Of a DNA stretch of 64,000 nucleotides, positions 29,572 through 64,000 are shown piece after piece. The notes below the pieces were generated by a model. The model had not been told where the DNA came from and did no database searches. It saw only the letters and a list, made by a program, of their open reading frames with translations. This DNA comes from Candidatus Desulfofervidus auxilii (lineage in GTDB: Bacteria; Desulfobacterota; Desulfofervidia; Desulfofervidales; Desulfofervidaceae). The stretch spans positions 326,632 to 390,631 of the forward strand of contig NZ_CP013015.1 of the NCBI RefSeq assembly GCF_001577525.1, written 5' to 3'. Both the position numbers and the translations under genes were made by a program. Position 1 is the first letter of the stretch. Every line of letters starts with the position of its first letter.

Positions 29572-30495
29572 ATGTTAAATGCCTTAACCATAGATGTAGA
29601 AGACTATTTTCAGGTAGAAGCATTTGCTTCAAGAATAAATTATAATGAGTGGGATAATTATCCTTGTCGGATAAAACAAAACACACAAAAAATTTTAGAT
29701 ATTTTAGATGATTATCAAATAAAAGCCACTTTCTTCTGCTTAGGTTGGATTGCAAAAAGAAGTCCTTCTTTAATAAAAAACATTGCTCAAAGAGGACATG
29801 AAGTTGCCTCTCATGGCTATGCTCATCAGCCAGTTTATAAACAATCTCCAGATATTTTTATGCAGGATATAAGGAAAACAAAACAAATCCTTGAAGACAT
29901 CATAGGACAACCTGTTATTGGTTATCGTGCTCCTACTTATTCCATTACTCAAAAAACACTTTGGGCATTAGAAATTTTAGCTGAAGAAGGCTATAAATAC
30001 GACTCAAGTATTTTTCCCATCAAACACGATTTATATGGTATTCCCAATGCACCTAGATTCCCATTTAACGTTCACACGTTAAAACGTGCTAACGTGTTTA
30101 CGTGTAAACGTTCTAACGTTCTAACGTGCAAACGTGCAAACGTGCAAACGTTTTTTGAATTTCCTTTAACCACCCTACGAATTTTAAATATAAACATCCC
30201 CATTGCTGGTGGTGGTTATTTTAGAGTATTTCCTTACATATTTATTAAAAATGCTTTGAGGCACATAAACTTAAAAGAGAAACAGCCATTTATTTTTTAT
30301 CTTCACCCCTGGGAATTAGACCCTGAACAACCTCGCATAAATCACTTACCTTGGCGTTCTCGCTTCAGACATTACGTAAATTTAAGAAAAACCGAAGGCA
30401 AATTTAGGAAACTTTTATCGGATTTCAGATTTAGCACAGTTTTAAAAGTACTAAAACAACACAATAGTAAATTAGGCACTCATGAAGGCTATTAA
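29572..30495 (+). CDS. polysaccharide deacetylase, exosortase-A locus type
   Basis: 307 residues. Carbohydrate esterase 4 (NodB) fold: the metal/catalytic motif TIDVEDYFQVEAF at the N-terminus, ATFFCLGWIA, HEVASHGYAHQPVY, and YRAPTYSIT. The C-terminal YLHPWELDP is typical of the PEP-CTERM locus subfamily. The core enzyme is interrupted by about 29 residues (166-195) made by an in-frame array of 8-bp repeats, giving an 8-residue protein repeat (NVFTCKRS, NVLTCKRA). The ATG follows the repeat array directly with no ribosome site. Whether the enzyme remains active is open; all main motifs lie outside the insert. Confidence 0.88.
   Translation: MLNALTIDVEDYFQVEAFASRINYNEWDNYPCRIKQNTQKILDILDDYQIKATFFCLGWIAKRSPSLIKNIAQRGHEVASHGYAHQPVYKQSPDIFMQDIRKTKQILEDIIGQPVIGYRAPTYSITQKTLWALEILAEEGYKYDSSIFPIKHDLYGIPNAPRFPFNVHTLKRANVFTCKRSNVLTCKRANVQTFFEFPLTTLRILNINIPIAGGGYFRVFPYIFIKNALRHINLKEKQPFIFYLHPWELDPEQPRINHLPWRSRFRHYVNLRKTEGKFRKLLSDFRFSTVLKVLKQHNSKLGTHEGY
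30067..30154. repeat. 8-bp repeat array inside a coding sequence
   Basis: Eleven consecutive 8-bp units (AACGTTCA, CACGTTAA, AACGTGCT and so on) lie inside the deacetylase gene. Three units make 24 bases, so the protein shows an 8-residue period. At each junction where a final T would create TAA in frame (after units 2, 5 and 8) the unit ends in A, so the frame stays open. Confidence 0.93.
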
Positions 30496-38019: not shown

Positions 38020-38715
38020 ATGAATCATCCATCTCAAGAAACTACAAAAAATTGGTCATTAGAACAAAGAGAGGCTGAAAGCAGAAAGATTATCAAAGAG
38101 GCAATAGAAAAACATCAAGGTAAAATTGCCACTGCCTGGTCAGGAGGAAAGGATTCAACTACAGTATTACATTTAATTAAACAGGAATTTGGTAAAGTCA
38201 TTATTCCAGTAGTATTTATTGATACTTCCGTAAAGTTTCCTGAAATTTATGCCTTTAGGGATAAACTGGCAAAGGAATGGAATTTAAATTTAATTATTAT
38301 AAAAAATGAAAATGCCTTAAAGGAAATAGAAATTGCTAAGGATAAAAAAGAATGTTGTTATTTATTAAAGACTTTACCCTTGCGTCAAATTATAGAAAAA
38401 AATGGCTGGCAGGCATTAATTACTGCAGTGCGTTGGGATGAACAAGAGGCAAGAAAAAATGAGGTTTATATCTCTCCAAGAGAAAATCCACCACATTTAA
38501 GAATCCATCCCATTTTGCACTTTAGAGAAATAGATATTTGGTCTTATATAAAAAAATATAATGTGCCTTATTGCGAATTATATCACAAAGGCTATCGTTC
38601 ATTAGGTTGTATACCCTGCACCCAGCTGGGTTCTGCTGAAGGCCCTGAAAGAAGTGGTAGAGATCAAAGTAAAGAAGAAATAATGCAACGGTTGAGGGAT
38701 TTAGGGTATTTTTGA
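38020..38715 (+). CDS. adenylyl/phosphoadenylyl-sulfate reductase family protein (CysH-like)
   Basis: 231 residues. The PP-loop TAWSGGKDSTTVLHL is near residue 40, FIDTSVKFPEIY follows, and the C-terminal YHKGYRSLGCIPCTQ has paired cysteines. A second cysteine pair (KECCYLLK) precedes; CC plus CxxC is the [4Fe-4S] pattern of APS-type assimilatory reductases. Activity on APS to release sulfite is therefore likely, although PP-loop relatives of other function exist. It has its own ribosome site (AAGGAGG). It stands alone between repeats with no other sulfur gene nearby. Confidence 0.82.
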   Translation: MNHPSQETTKNWSLEQREAESRKIIKEAIEKHQGKIATAWSGGKDSTTVLHLIKQEFGKVIIPVVFIDTSVKFPEIYAFRDKLAKEWNLNLIIIKNENALKEIEIAKDKKECCYLLKTLPLRQIIEKNGWQALITAVRWDEQEARKNEVYISPRENPPHLRIHPILHFREIDIWSYIKKYNVPYCELYHKGYRSLGCIPCTQLGSAEGPERSGRDQSKEEIMQRLRDLGYF

Positions 38716-38770
38716 TAGTGAATAGTGACTAGTGACTGGTGACTAGTGACTGGTGATTGGTGATTAGTGA
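38716..38770. repeat. 7-bp repeat array, left arm (TAGTGAC type)
   Basis: Units TAGTGAA, TAGTGAC, TGGTGAC, TGGTGAT and TAGTGA begin at the base after the cysH-like stop codon and end six bases before the four-helix-bundle ATG. The complementary units occur at 39187-39254 on the other side of that gene, forming a long inverted pair. Confidence 0.9.
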
Positions 38771-38775
38771 AGAAG

Positions 38776-39147: not shown

Positions 39148-39186
39148 TGAGTTGGGATTAGTGACTTGTGGTTTGTAATTTGCACC

Positions 39187-39254
39187 TAGTCACTAGTTAC
39201 TAATCACTAATCACTAGTCACTAATTACTAATCACTAGTCACTAGTTACTAGTG
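39187..39254. repeat. 7-bp repeat array, right arm (GTCACTA type)
   Basis: Units GTCACTA, ATCACTA, GTTACTA and ATTACTA run to GTTACTAGTG. They are the reverse complement of the left array (TAGTGAC type) at 38716-38770. A short same-strand run (GATTAGTGA, GGATTAGTGAC) lies at 39141-39165. The array ends abruptly in a truncated gene. Confidence 0.9.
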
Positions 39255-39428
39255 CTTCTTTCAAAACATGGTTTTGATTTAAAGGCCACGGTTCAACGTG
39301 ATGTAGTATTTGGTCGAAGCGGCTTACAAGGCATGCATACTTATGATGATGCCTTTTATTTTTGTGATAAAGGTATTGAGTGTAAAAGTATTTTTGAAAT
39401 AAAAGAAATAATCAGTGTATTAATATAA
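39252..39428 (+). pseudogene. C-terminal fragment of an unidentified gene (AP-superfamily-like)
   Basis: One frame continues from the repeat into ATVQRDVVFGRSGLQGMHTY, DDAFYFCDKG and a stop about 58 codons on. The RSGLQGMHTYDDAF segment looks like the end of an alkaline-phosphatase/phosphodiesterase-superfamily protein, but I am unsure. The frame is closed by TAG just upstream within the 7-mers, so the 5' part has been lost at the array boundary. Confidence 0.5.
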
Positions 39429-60083: not shown

Positions 60084-61272
60084 TAGAAATCCAGCCATTG
60101 TTTTAGGTCTAGACGTAAATGGGCTTGGACATGTCAGAAGTCTAGCCCTTACGGGCATAAAAGTTATAGGAATTTATACTGATTATAAAGAGGTAGGTCG
60201 ATTTTCAAAATTATGCATATCTATTAAATTTCCTAATATTAAAGAAGATAGAGAAAAATTTAAGAAAAAATTAATAACATTAGGAAAGTCATTATCTCAC
60301 AAAGCTGTTTTATTTGCCACAAATGATCTTTATGCTGAATTTATCTCAGAATTTAAGGAAGAGCTTCAATCATTTTTTCTGTTTACTATTCCTGATAAGG
60401 AATTGCTTGATAAAATAATAAATAAAAATACAATGAAAGAGTTGGCAGAAAGGGCTGGGTTAACAGTCCCTAAAACCTTTTCTTTATTATCTTATGAGTC
60501 TATAACTAAAATAGCTGAAACATTAACTTATCCATGTTTAATAAAACCTTTAGATTCATTTTCAATAAATTTCCCAGGGAAAAATATACTTATTAACAAT
60601 AAACAAGAGTTTATAGAATTTTACCACAACAATCCACATTTTGTGGGTAAAACAATAATTCAAGAGTTAATAACTGGTGGTGATCAAAATATTTTTCAAT
60701 GTACAACCTATTTTAATAAAAATAGCATTCCGCTATGTGTTTTTACTATGCAAAAGATACGGCAATATCCTCCTTGTTTCGGTATTACTTCCTTTGGTGT
60801 AAGTAAAACAATACCTGAACTAATAGAGCAAACCTTTATTTTCTTAAAAAATATCAATCATAAAGGATTTGCATCTGTAGAATTTAAATGGGATGAAAAA
60901 AGGCAAAAATACTTTTTCTTCGAAGTTAATCCAAGATTACCTTGGTATAATTCACTATTTACTGCAAGTGGGGTTAATTTCCCTTATATTGCTTATTTGG
61001 ACCATACATCTTCATGCATCTTAAAAAACAAGATGCCTAAACAAATTGATGGAGTGTATTGGCTTAATTTCAGAGTAGATATCAGTTCATTTTGGAGAAG
61101 ACGAAAACTAGGTGATAAAATTTCTTTGTCGCAATGGCTTCAATCCATTTTTTGTGCTCGGTCCTTTGCTTATTGGCATAAAAAAGACCCCCTTCCGTTT
61201 TGTTGGGCAAGTTTAGATTTTTTAAGTTTTTTGGGAAGTAAATTTGTAGAAAATTTAACGAAATATTTATGA
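60052..61272 (+). CDS. ATP-grasp family protein
   Basis: 406 residues from the ATG at 60052. A pre-ATP-grasp domain (NPAIVLGLDVNGLGHVRSLA) is followed by NKNTMKELAERAGLTVPKTF, the ATP-binding YPCLIKPLDSFSINFPGK, and the metal-site FASVEFKWDEKRQKYFFFEVNPR. Such proteins in polysaccharide loci join carboxylates to amines, for example amino acids to sugars. It overlaps the glycosyltransferase by 32 bases and the LarA-like gene by four. The substrate is not predictable. Confidence 0.85.
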   Translation: MQNCIKNLAINRNPAIVLGLDVNGLGHVRSLALTGIKVIGIYTDYKEVGRFSKLCISIKFPNIKEDREKFKKKLITLGKSLSHKAVLFATNDLYAEFISEFKEELQSFFLFTIPDKELLDKIINKNTMKELAERAGLTVPKTFSLLSYESITKIAETLTYPCLIKPLDSFSINFPGKNILINNKQEFIEFYHNNPHFVGKTIIQELITGGDQNIFQCTTYFNKNSIPLCVFTMQKIRQYPPCFGITSFGVSKTIPELIEQTFIFLKNINHKGFASVEFKWDEKRQKYFFFEVNPRLPWYNSLFTASGVNFPYIAYLDHTSSCILKNKMPKQIDGVYWLNFRVDISSFWRRRKLGDKISLSQWLQSIFCARSFAYWHKKDPLPFCWASLDFLSFLGSKFVENLTKYL

Positions 61273-62567
61273 AAAACGAATATAAAAATATCACCTTACC
61301 ATCAGGGTCATGGTGTGGAGACCGTGAAATTAATATTTATTTTCCAAAAAACTGGGAAATCAACGTTTTTGGGCCTAAATCATTTAAAAAATTAACTGAT
61401 GAGGATATTATTACTCGTTTAAATAACCCTATAAAATGCCCTTCCCTTTTTGAAATACTTTCAAATCAAAAAAAAATAGCAATTATAGTAGATGACATAA
61501 CAAGACCAACGCCAGTATCAAAAATTCTTTCTATTTTATTAACAATAATTAAAAATCAAGGAATCAATAATTCTAATATTAAAATTATAATTGCAACAGG
61601 TACACATAAGATAGCTAAAAATTCTACATTCTTTAATAAACTAGATAAAAAAATTCTTAACGAAATAAAAGTTATAATACATCATTGCAAAAAAGATTTA
61701 AAATTCATTGGTTATTCGAAAAATAAAATTCCTATATATATTAATAAATACGCTGCAGAAGCTGATGTAAAAATAAGTATTGGAGGGGTTTACCCTCATG
61801 ATGACGTAGGTTTTAGTGGAGGAGCAAAAATATTAATTGGCGTACTTGGACTTAAATCTATAAGTTTATTACATAGAAATTTTCCTGAGGTGGAACGAGG
61901 GAGAATGGTAGAACTGCCATTTAGACATGAATTAGAAAGTATCGCAAGCAAAGTTGGTCTTGATTTTAGTATAAATGTAGTTATCGGTGCCAAAAAAGAA
62001 ATCATAGAACTCTTTACTGGTCACTATTACTATGCATTTAGAAAAGCGGCACAATTTGTTAAAAATAATTTTGGAACTGAAATAGTGCCTAAAGCTGATA
62101 TAGTAATTTCTAATGCTTATCCTTTAGATACTTCAGGTATTGTTATTGGAAAAAGTTTATGGCCATTTCGTTATTATAAAAATTCAAATGTTAAAATCAT
62201 TATAGCAGCACTTTGTGAAGGATTTGGTACGCGTTACTTTGCTTGTATATCCACAAAGGAAAAATTTCTCTATTATCTTAAAAAAATAACAATGGCATCT
62301 TATCTTAGGAATAAATGGAAAGAATACAAAACTTTACAAAAAATTATTTCTAATCCTGATTTTAAATGGAAATTAAATTATGTTATTTTTGTGCCTTTCA
62401 TTCAAAATAAAGTAAAATTAAAAAAAGTATGGAATAATAAATTCATATTTTATTCCTGGGATAACCTATTAAAAGAACTTAAATCTAAATTTTCACAAAA
62501 ACAAGTTGTTAAAGTAGTAGTTTATCCATGTTCTCCCTTACAATTCCCTCTTTTCTCAAACTTCTAA
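61269..62567 (+). CDS. LarA-family nickel-pincer racemase/epimerase homologue
   Basis: 432 residues, close to LarA (424). Key positions match those known for lactate racemase: Arg79 in VDDITRPTP, His113 in ATGTHK, His177 in YPHDDVGFSGGAK, the cofactor-anchoring Lys187 in that loop, and His202 fifteen residues further as a nickel ligand candidate. The family uses the pincer cofactor made by LarBCE, encoded at 48680-51414. Its operon holds glycosyltransferases and an ATP-grasp enzyme, so the substrate is more likely a sugar acid or hydroxy acid of the polysaccharide than lactate (inference). ATGA overlap with the ATP-grasp gene. Confidence 0.85.
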   Translation: MKNEYKNITLPSGSWCGDREINIYFPKNWEINVFGPKSFKKLTDEDIITRLNNPIKCPSLFEILSNQKKIAIIVDDITRPTPVSKILSILLTIIKNQGINNSNIKIIIATGTHKIAKNSTFFNKLDKKILNEIKVIIHHCKKDLKFIGYSKNKIPIYINKYAAEADVKISIGGVYPHDDVGFSGGAKILIGVLGLKSISLLHRNFPEVERGRMVELPFRHELESIASKVGLDFSINVVIGAKKEIIELFTGHYYYAFRKAAQFVKNNFGTEIVPKADIVISNAYPLDTSGIVIGKSLWPFRYYKNSNVKIIIAALCEGFGTRYFACISTKEKFLYYLKKITMASYLRNKWKEYKTLQKIISNPDFKWKLNYVIFVPFIQNKVKLKKVWNNKFIFYSWDNLLKELKSKFSQKQVVKVVVYPCSPLQFPLFSNF

Positions 62568-62581
62568 ATGAAACATTTTGA

Positions 62582-62863
62582 ATAAAAATATTCCTAATTG
62601 AAGCCATGGCTAGCAAAGTGCCTGTTGTTTGTACTAATGTAGGAGGTATTCCTGAAGTAATTGAGGATGGTATAAATGGTTTCCTTGTTCCTGTTGCTAA
62701 CTCAAGTACATTAGCTGAAAAAATAATATATCTTTTAAAAAACAAAACACTATCAAACAACTTTACCCTTTATGGCTACCACAAAATTAAACAGCGATTT
62801 AGTTTACAATCCATGCTTGATAAATATGCAGAAATTTACTCAGACTTAATGACCATGAACTAA
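62582..62863 (+). pseudogene. C-terminal fragment of a family 4 glycosyltransferase
   Basis: Frame reads FLIEAMASKVPVVCTNVGG, IPEVIEDGINGFLVPV and a helical end, the last third of a GT-B enzyme. The N-terminal domain is missing and a stop lies just before. The terminal TAA occurs in heptamer-like text (GAACTAA, GGACTAA). Probably a recombination remnant. Confidence 0.78.
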
Positions 62864-62910
62864 GTACAAAGGACTAAGCCCAACGCAATCAACTCAACAA
62901 ACACAACAAA

Positions 62911-62965
62911 CATGTTAACGTGTCAACGTACTTACGTTCCAACGTTCTAACGTGTAAACGCGCAA
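62911..62965. repeat. 8-bp repeat array
   Basis: Units AACGTGTC, AACGTACT, TACGTTCC, AACGTTCT, AACGTGTA, AACGCGCA, ending two or three bases before the wecB ATG. No ribosome site fits between. Confidence 0.9.
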
Positions 62966-62967
62966 AA

Positions 62968-64000
62968 ATGAAAATAGTTAGCGTTGTAGGTGCAAGGCCA
63001 AATTTCATGAAGGTAGCTCCAATTATCAGAGCCATTGAAAAGTATAATGAATCTTATTACCAGTCACCAATCACTAATCACTATTCACTAAACCCTATTC
63101 ACCACATCCTTGCCCACACAGGCCAGCACTATGATAACCACATGTCCGATGCCTTCTTTAAAGACCTAGGGCTTCCAAAGCCTGATATTTATTTAGGTAT
63201 AGGCTCAGCTTCTCACGCAGTTCAAACGGCCGAAATTATGAAACGATTTGAACAAATTTTATTAAAAGAAAAGCCAAATATAGTGATTGTAGTAGGTGAT
63301 GTAAACTCTACCCTTGCCTGTGCCCTCGTTGCCTCCAAAATCGAATATCCAACTTCTAACTTGCAACTTGTAACTTGCAACTTAAAGCAGCGGAAGCCGC
63401 TGATTGCCCACGTAGAAGCCGGCCTCCGTTCCTTTGACCGTTCTATGCCTGAAGAGATTAATCGCATATTAACCGACCATATTTCCGATTTTCTTTTTGT
63501 CACAGAACCTAGTGGAATAGAAAACCTTAAAAATGAAGGCTTTAAAAACTTTCTTGATTGCCAATCACTAACTACTAATCACCAATCACCAATTACCAAT
63601 TACCAACTGCCACTTGTAGCATATGTCGGCAACACCATGATAGATACTCTTCTCAAGCATCGCCAAAAAGCCCAAAAATCAGATATTCTTTATCGTCTCG
63701 GCCTAATAAAGGATTTTTCAACTGACAACGGTCAACCGACTACTGACTACTGTGTGTTAACGCTTCACCGCCCTTCAAATGTTGATAATAAAGAAACCTT
63801 CTTAAATATAATTGAAGCCCTAAAAGAAATTTCAAAACATATCCCTATCATATTTCCAGCCCATCCCCGCACTCAAACCCGTATCAAACAATTCAGACTT
63901 GAACAATATTTTAAAAGATTTTCAACTTCAAACTTGCAACTTGCAACTTGCAACTCTGGTATTTACTGCATAGAACCTCTCGGTTATCTTGACTTTCTTT
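62968..64000 (+). CDS. wecB: UDP-N-acetylglucosamine 2-epimerase with five in-frame micro-repeat inserts (partial at 3')
   Basis: 344 codons, open to the right edge. Converts UDP-GlcNAc to UDP-ManNAc for surface polysaccharide. Family motifs are intact and in order: VVGARPNFMKVAPIIRAIE, LAHTGQHYDNHMSDAFF, GDVNSTLACAL, AHVEAGLRSFDRSMPEEINR, YVGNTMIDTLL, LTLHRPSNVDNKE, FPAHPRTQTRI and EPLGYLDFL. Between them sit five stretches that do not belong to the family (about residues 31-42, 128-140, 197-216, 251-262, 318-330), each made of 7-bp repeats and each leaving the frame open. All fall where loops are expected. The enzyme may still work; the C-terminus is outside the window. Confidence 0.9.
   Translation, partial: MKIVSVVGARPNFMKVAPIIRAIEKYNESYYQSPITNHYSLNPIHHILAHTGQHYDNHMSDAFFKDLGLPKPDIYLGIGSASHAVQTAEIMKRFEQILLKEKPNIVIVVGDVNSTLACALVASKIEYPTSNLQLVTCNLKQRKPLIAHVEAGLRSFDRSMPEEINRILTDHISDFLFVTEPSGIENLKNEGFKNFLDCQSLTTNHQSPITNYQLPLVAYVGNTMIDTLLKHRQKAQKSDILYRLGLIKDFSTDNGQPTTDYCVLTLHRPSNVDNKETFLNIIEALKEISKHIPIIFPAHPRTQTRIKQFRLEQYFKRFSTSNLQLATCNSGIYCIEPLGYLDFL
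63060..63092. repeat. wecB insert 1 (7-bp units, ATCACTA type)
   Basis: CAGTCACCAATCACTAATCA and on to CTATTCACTAAAC. Units AATCACT/ATTCACT; same family as 39187-39254. Encodes about twelve residues between AIEKYNE and HHILAHTGQ. Confidence 0.88.
63348..63386. repeat. wecB insert 2 (7-bp units, CAACTTG type)
   Basis: Five units CAACTTC, TAACTTG, CAACTTG, TAACTTG, CAACTTA. Lies between the GDVNSTLACALVASK and AHVEAGLRSF motifs. Confidence 0.88.
63556..63613. repeat. wecB insert 3 (7-bp units, CAATCAC type)
   Basis: Units CAATCAC, TAACTAC, TAATCAC, CAATCAC, CAATTAC, CAATTAC, CAACTGC. Longest of the five; encodes about 19 residues before YVGNTMIDTLL. Confidence 0.88.
63717..63751. repeat. wecB insert 4 (7-bp units, AACTGAC type)
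   Basis: Units AACTGAC, AACGGTC, AACCGAC, TACTGAC, TACTG. Lies just before LTLHRPSNVDN. Confidence 0.82.
63919..63957. repeat. wecB insert 5 (7-bp units, CTTGCAA type)
   Basis: TTCAACTTCAAACTTGCAAC then CTTGCAA units to CAACTCT. Lies before YCIEPLGYLDFL; same unit as insert 2. Confidence 0.85.

Follow-up and report, generated by a model that had tools for sequence, protein, structure and literature searches.

A wecB-type UDP-GlcNAc 2-epimerase gene carries tandem arrays of imperfect 7-bp units in five of its internal loops. Heptameric simple-repeat arrays of this kind probably enter or arise in genes by copying and slippage, with selection for frame and fold retaining those that fall in tolerant loops. 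The gene begins near the end of the window (the whole stretch of DNA analysed, 64,000 nucleotides) and runs beyond it; positions preceded by C1 are genome coordinates. The gene and its arrays are as follows.

62968..64000, plus strand, continuing to genome position C1:390924: wecB-type UDP-GlcNAc 2-epimerase gene, assigned by TIGR00236, PF02350, motifs, and fold
63052..63102, plus strand: array 1, CAATCAC/TAATCAC family, in the loop between helix 10-32 and strand 45-50
63347..63390, plus strand: array 2, CAACTTG family, in the loop between helix 113-124 and strand 145-151
63560..63620, plus strand: array 3, CAATCAC/TAATCAC family, in the loop between helix 181-189 and strand 216-219
63716..63758, plus strand: array 4, CAACTGA/CTACTGA family, the most degenerate, in the loop between helix 240-243 and strand 262-265
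63918..63962, plus strand: array 5, CAACTTG family, in the loop between helix 300-308 and strand 332-335

The wecB frame opens with the ATG at 62968 and is stop-free up to the end of the window. In the 2.54-Mb single-contig genome, it reaches C1:390924 and encodes 441 amino acids (aa) with a complete C-terminal half (DSGGIQEE, NTERP, GTN, and LWDG). Thus, wecB has no downstream frameshift, which had been named beforehand as the sign of a dead gene, and the 441-codon frame bearing all motifs rules out a pseudogene. Against TIGR00236 (cut-off, 210), the full-length product scored 287 bits and the part encoded in the window 181 bits; the PF02350 score of the full-length product was 321 bits. In a 54-sequence WecB alignment, R10, K15, D111, E150, E163, H267, DSGG, and NTERP were conserved and mostly invariant. 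This bears out the claim of intact epimerase motifs. The solved fold closest to the structure model was 4nes, a UDP-GlcNAc 2-epimerase (TM 0.92, normalised by target); by sequence, UDP-2,3-diacetamido-glucuronate epimerases are about equally close. The end branch of the WecB core in the tree was 0.31 against a median of 0.66, suggesting that the core is constrained and not decaying. The product is most likely a functional WecB in which five loops are long and flexible, its activity being predicted from the sequence. Two further observations concern the neighborhood. A lactate racemase N-terminal domain protein (PF09861) is encoded at 61269-62567 within the polysaccharide gene cluster. Directly upstream of wecB, at 62606-62863, lies an 85-aa remnant of a family 4 glycosyltransferase comprising the C-terminal end only, a sign of past rearrangement beside the arrays.

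Lag-7 self-similarity exceeded the threshold in 94 test windows across wecB and in none across 300 codon-shuffled genes. Each of the five segments had a lag-7 score unmatched in 1500 shuffles; lags 6, 8, and 9 reached no significance for these segments in the shuffle test. With the frame open, the original prediction of five in-frame 7-bp repeat segments therefore stands. The period is 7 nt in the DNA, which rules out a protein-level repeat under selection. Without a corresponding protein period, it marks former repeat DNA within a coding loop. Five repeat families had been predicted, but only three were found: CAATCAC/TAATCAC (sites 1 and 3), CAACTTG (sites 2 and 5), and CAACTGA/CTACTGA (site 4), since CTTGCAA is a rotation of CAACTTG, and ATCACTA and CAATCAC form a single family. 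Moreover, arrays 2 and 5 align at 31 of 33 positions and have in common both an odd first unit, CAACTTC, and the reading register (TSNLQL[V/A]TCN). With three families and two arrays that are copies of one another, the idea of five independent insertions by different units found no support. The region 62900-64000 contains no inverted repeat pairs of at least 12 bp, ruling out a palindromic element or MITE, Rickettsia palindromic elements included.

Filtering for function had also been proposed, and the reading frame backs it. Arrays 1 and 3 are open in just one of six frames, the one actually used. All four in-phase YAATCAC units are stop-free, whereas among the 25 units that are intergenic or out of phase, 17 start with a stop triplet (Fisher P = 0.02 for stop avoidance).

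An AlphaFold2 model built on the 54-sequence alignment (mean pLDDT 90, pTM 0.91) confirmed the expected placement in loops. All five arrays lie between a helix and the next strand; with about 52 of the 359 core residues located in such alpha-to-beta junctions, the chance of this result is about 6e-5. Ten-residue blocks over the arrays had mean pLDDT values of 69, 53, 62, 72, and 64 (arrays 1 to 5); the sole other block with a comparably low value was the C-terminal end. Since the catalytic residues of Rossmann-like domains sit on beta-to-alpha loops, the arrays should occupy the face opposite the active site in the model.

Loop length at sites 1, 2, 4, and 5 is variable among WecB relatives, some of which also have long loops there. 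The site 3 loop has 11 residues in nearly all relatives, 31 here, and 34 in the WecB of a same-family genome (L016, G001). The description of the segments as foreign to the family therefore goes too far for sites 1, 2, 4, and 5. The site 5 loop is equally long in the paralog from the same genome, showing that array 5 constitutes the loop and adds no length. This variation in relatives indicates that the array sites are tolerant; here, they are nonetheless filled with repeat DNA. The long loops tested in four relatives (L019, L020, L032, and L035) had no period of 7. The 34-residue site 3 loop of G001 has a weak period of 7 (P = 0.02) and, judged by sequence, is perhaps a decayed array.

These observations bear on the alternative that the arrays are ordinary variable alpha-to-beta loops of WecB, in which repeats formed by slippage in weakly constrained sequence and without dispersal. 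The length variation at four sites agrees with this view, and slippage alone can yield heptamers, the most frequent class of long simple repeat in the majority of bacterial genomes (Mrazek 2007 as reported in PMC4679880). We nevertheless consider it unlikely. It is at odds with the nearly constant length of site 3 in relatives and with their long loops lacking the period. Separate slippage events would not be expected to give arrays 2 and 5 the same order of variant units, nor adjacent genes of a second genome (G223, see below) one family in common.

Outside the gene, the genome was sampled in 20 evenly spaced 20-kb pieces (16% of the genome), most of which had few or zero arrays. Both 7-mer and 8-mer (AACGTGYN) arrays are concentrated in a polysaccharide region at C1:355-422 kb, and smaller clusters occur in other places. 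Nearly all arrays in this genome are intergenic, and this distribution, spread and mainly between genes, is that of heptameric simple-sequence repeats. The following arrays are relevant to wecB.

30067..30157, plus strand: in-frame 8-mer array (NVHTLKRANVFTCKRSNVLTCKRANVQTFF) within an XrtA-type polysaccharide deacetylase gene (29572-30495)
38707..38775, minus strand: intergenic array, family of arrays 1 and 3
39182..39260, plus strand: intergenic array, family of arrays 1 and 3
62909..62966, plus strand: 8-mer array of the AACGTGYN type, adjoining the wecB start codon
C1:390916-390996, outside the window: 8-mer array of similar type, spanning the wecB stop codon

The two intergenic YAATCAC-family arrays lie about 25 kb upstream of wecB. 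The array in the deacetylase gene, which belongs to this polysaccharide region, is the other clear coding array in the sampled sequence, and its product still scored 417 bits against its own family model despite the 8-mers. The array 3' of wecB contains the sequence of arrays 2 and 5 with single-base insertions. In three-unit form, CAACTTG was found nowhere in this genome outside wecB. As a separate observation, many intergenic arrays at 29313-57574 and in C1:355-422 kb are composite, with AACGTGYN 8-mers followed by GAAAATA/CCCAATT 7-mers and then by GACTAAG 7-mers. This order recurs similarly in several gaps of the polysaccharide region, and the AACGTGYN 8-mers of the listed genome stretch all have the same orientation.

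The gene could have been acquired, arrays included, from a repeat-rich bacterium, in which case the arrays would be uninformative on processes in this genome. CAACTTG arrays, missing elsewhere in this genome, are present in 11 of 394 other genomes of the phylum; the tree neighbor of WecB is an Acidobacteriota sequence, with the own-genome paralog placed elsewhere; and the glycosyltransferase gene directly upstream is truncated. Despite these points, acquisition seems improbable to us, given that intergenic arrays in the region around wecB match arrays 1 and 3 and that the 8-mer arrays on either side of the gene are of the kind usual in this genome. The best identity found was only 63%, to the own-genome paralog, which leaves no evident donor, and acquisition would merely move the same question to the donor.

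In-frame arrays were also detected in other genomes. The WecB of G223, from a different family of the same phylum, has four 7/8-mer arrays at sites 1, 4, and 5, with units unrelated to ours. These arrays and the array-bearing genes near them are listed here.

G223 WecB, site 1: CAAGGTT x4 and TCACCCC x5
G223 WecB, site 4: 8-mer array
G223 WecB, site 5: ACCTTTY x5
L240, 9864-10937: DegT-like aminotransferase gene near G223 WecB, with in-frame arrays
L240, 16120-18381: gene for a 754-aa oxidoreductase near G223 WecB, with in-frame arrays

The G223 WecB arrays are absent from five relatives of its family (56-67% identity). At sites 4 and 5, they replace the loop and do not lengthen it. The TCACCCC family is nearly private to G223 WecB, and CAAGGTT is common to WecB and the oxidoreductase. 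The aminotransferase and oxidoreductase genes contain heptamer and octamer arrays, and the array residues are mostly missing from the homologues of both genes at other loci. Arrays in these neighbors are followed by TALIPVHL and VLMVGFNRR, which we take to be the expected beta-strands; at least two arrays precede such a strand. Single arrays were found at site 2 of WecB in two Desulfobacterales (L062 and L077) and at site 4 in a Cytophagaceae MAG (L046), and an AAATCTC stretch in another WecB (L059) was discounted because it is short and in or near a helix. We also noted a BioC-like methyltransferase (L135, G021) with an in-frame CAACTTG array, read as QLATCNLQLAT, directly before the first motif strand (glycine-rich motif). 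WecB genes had 8 arrays in 104 kb, compared to at most 5 in 523 kb for other open reading frames. WecB was not accepted as a special array target, since this excess is confounded by gene-cluster context: the neighbors of G223 WecB carry arrays too.

Heptameric long simple-sequence repeats include the cyanobacterial STRR, GGGGA(T/C)T of Nostoc, and GGGNATC of Xanthomonas (PMC4692102), and TAACTGA repeats are described for Beggiatoaceae (PMC4679880). The wecB arrays resemble them in having tandem 7-bp units, mixed families, a mostly intergenic distribution, and a position near start and stop codons, but the unit sequences differ. Of the known heptamers, neither TAACTGA nor GGGGA(T/C)T was found as a tandem unit: the 64-kb window has no TAACTGA dimer, and the only GGGGAYT-like match in wecB is GGTGATTGGTGATT, a CAATCAC-family sequence. 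Reported coding heptamer arrays affect either the termini of proteins or hypothetical proteins of small size (PMC4679880), whereas those of wecB occupy five internal loops of a conserved enzyme. A precedent for in-frame repeat DNA in conserved genes is provided by the Rickettsia palindromic elements, which are about 150 bp long, encode a conserved peptide, and are tolerated by the protein (PMC10969869). Unlike them, the wecB arrays have no inverted repeats and no fixed sequence. The RNase P RNA gene of heterocyst-forming cyanobacteria is also said to contain STRR (reportedly Vioque 1997); there, as in wecB, heptamer arrays lie within a functional conserved gene, but an RNA gene has no frame to preserve. 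Bacterial surface genes are a familiar setting for contingency loci driven by slippage, and wecB likewise combines slippage-prone repeats with a role in surface polysaccharide. A phase-variable switch, in which gain or loss of a 7-bp unit (7 is not a multiple of 3) would shift the frame and toggle WecB and the polysaccharide of its cluster, is very improbable, because the units are few and imperfect and several independent arrays in one gene make a poor switch; no single-unit variant was seen in this one genome. Our literature search, conducted largely outside the subscription journals, revealed no account of multiple internal enzyme loops filled by heptamer arrays. Heptamer arrays are of a known kind; their presence in several internal loops of one conserved enzyme appears to be a variant that has not been described before.

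The process favored here, copying plus slippage, is our inference, as is the view that the protein tolerates the loops without benefiting from them. The source would be heptameric simple-sequence arrays like those filling intergenic gaps of the polysaccharide region. Array DNA would enter or arise in a gene via local copying, with either a nearby array or a different loop of that gene as the source, and slippage would then extend it 7 bp at a time. A proposed cause of heptamer abundance is polymerase slippage, and the repeats expected in coding DNA are those with unit lengths divisible by three (Mrazek 2007 as reported in PMC4679880), so heptamers in coding loops run against expectation. Most array events would destroy the host gene, because the unit length does not preserve the frame and many units contain stops. 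Survivors would be those with a frame-keeping length, no in-frame stops, and a position in an alpha-to-beta loop that is well separated from the catalytic ones. The unit order of arrays 2 and 5 and the family common to the G223 genes point to local copying followed by slippage. In turn, the near-private families (CAACTTG here and TCACCCC in G223) are explained more readily by an origin in situ than by copies drawn from a pool spread over the genome. We favor a combination of the two, with reading frame and fold acting as a strict filter. Lengthening is not the only outcome, as the replaced loops (site 5 here, sites 4 and 5 in G223) illustrate.

Because a second genome independently has in-frame arrays in WecB loops, repeat DNA seems to be a source from which polysaccharide genes have repeatedly gained new protein loops. 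More tentatively, heptamer arrays may be a general and recurrent means of loop seeding in enzymes of polysaccharide clusters; they would be copied between neighboring sites, would be screened by frame and fold so that mainly those in alpha-to-beta loops persist, and would then decay into long loops that look ordinary, like those of relatives. We regard this generalization as possible rather than probable. Insertions are rarely observed while they are entering conserved enzymes, because the signature of the inserted DNA soon fades. The two independent multi-loop cases constitute a natural map of foreign-sequence acceptance by a Rossmann-type enzyme, and with them the birth of loops from simple repeats becomes directly testable.
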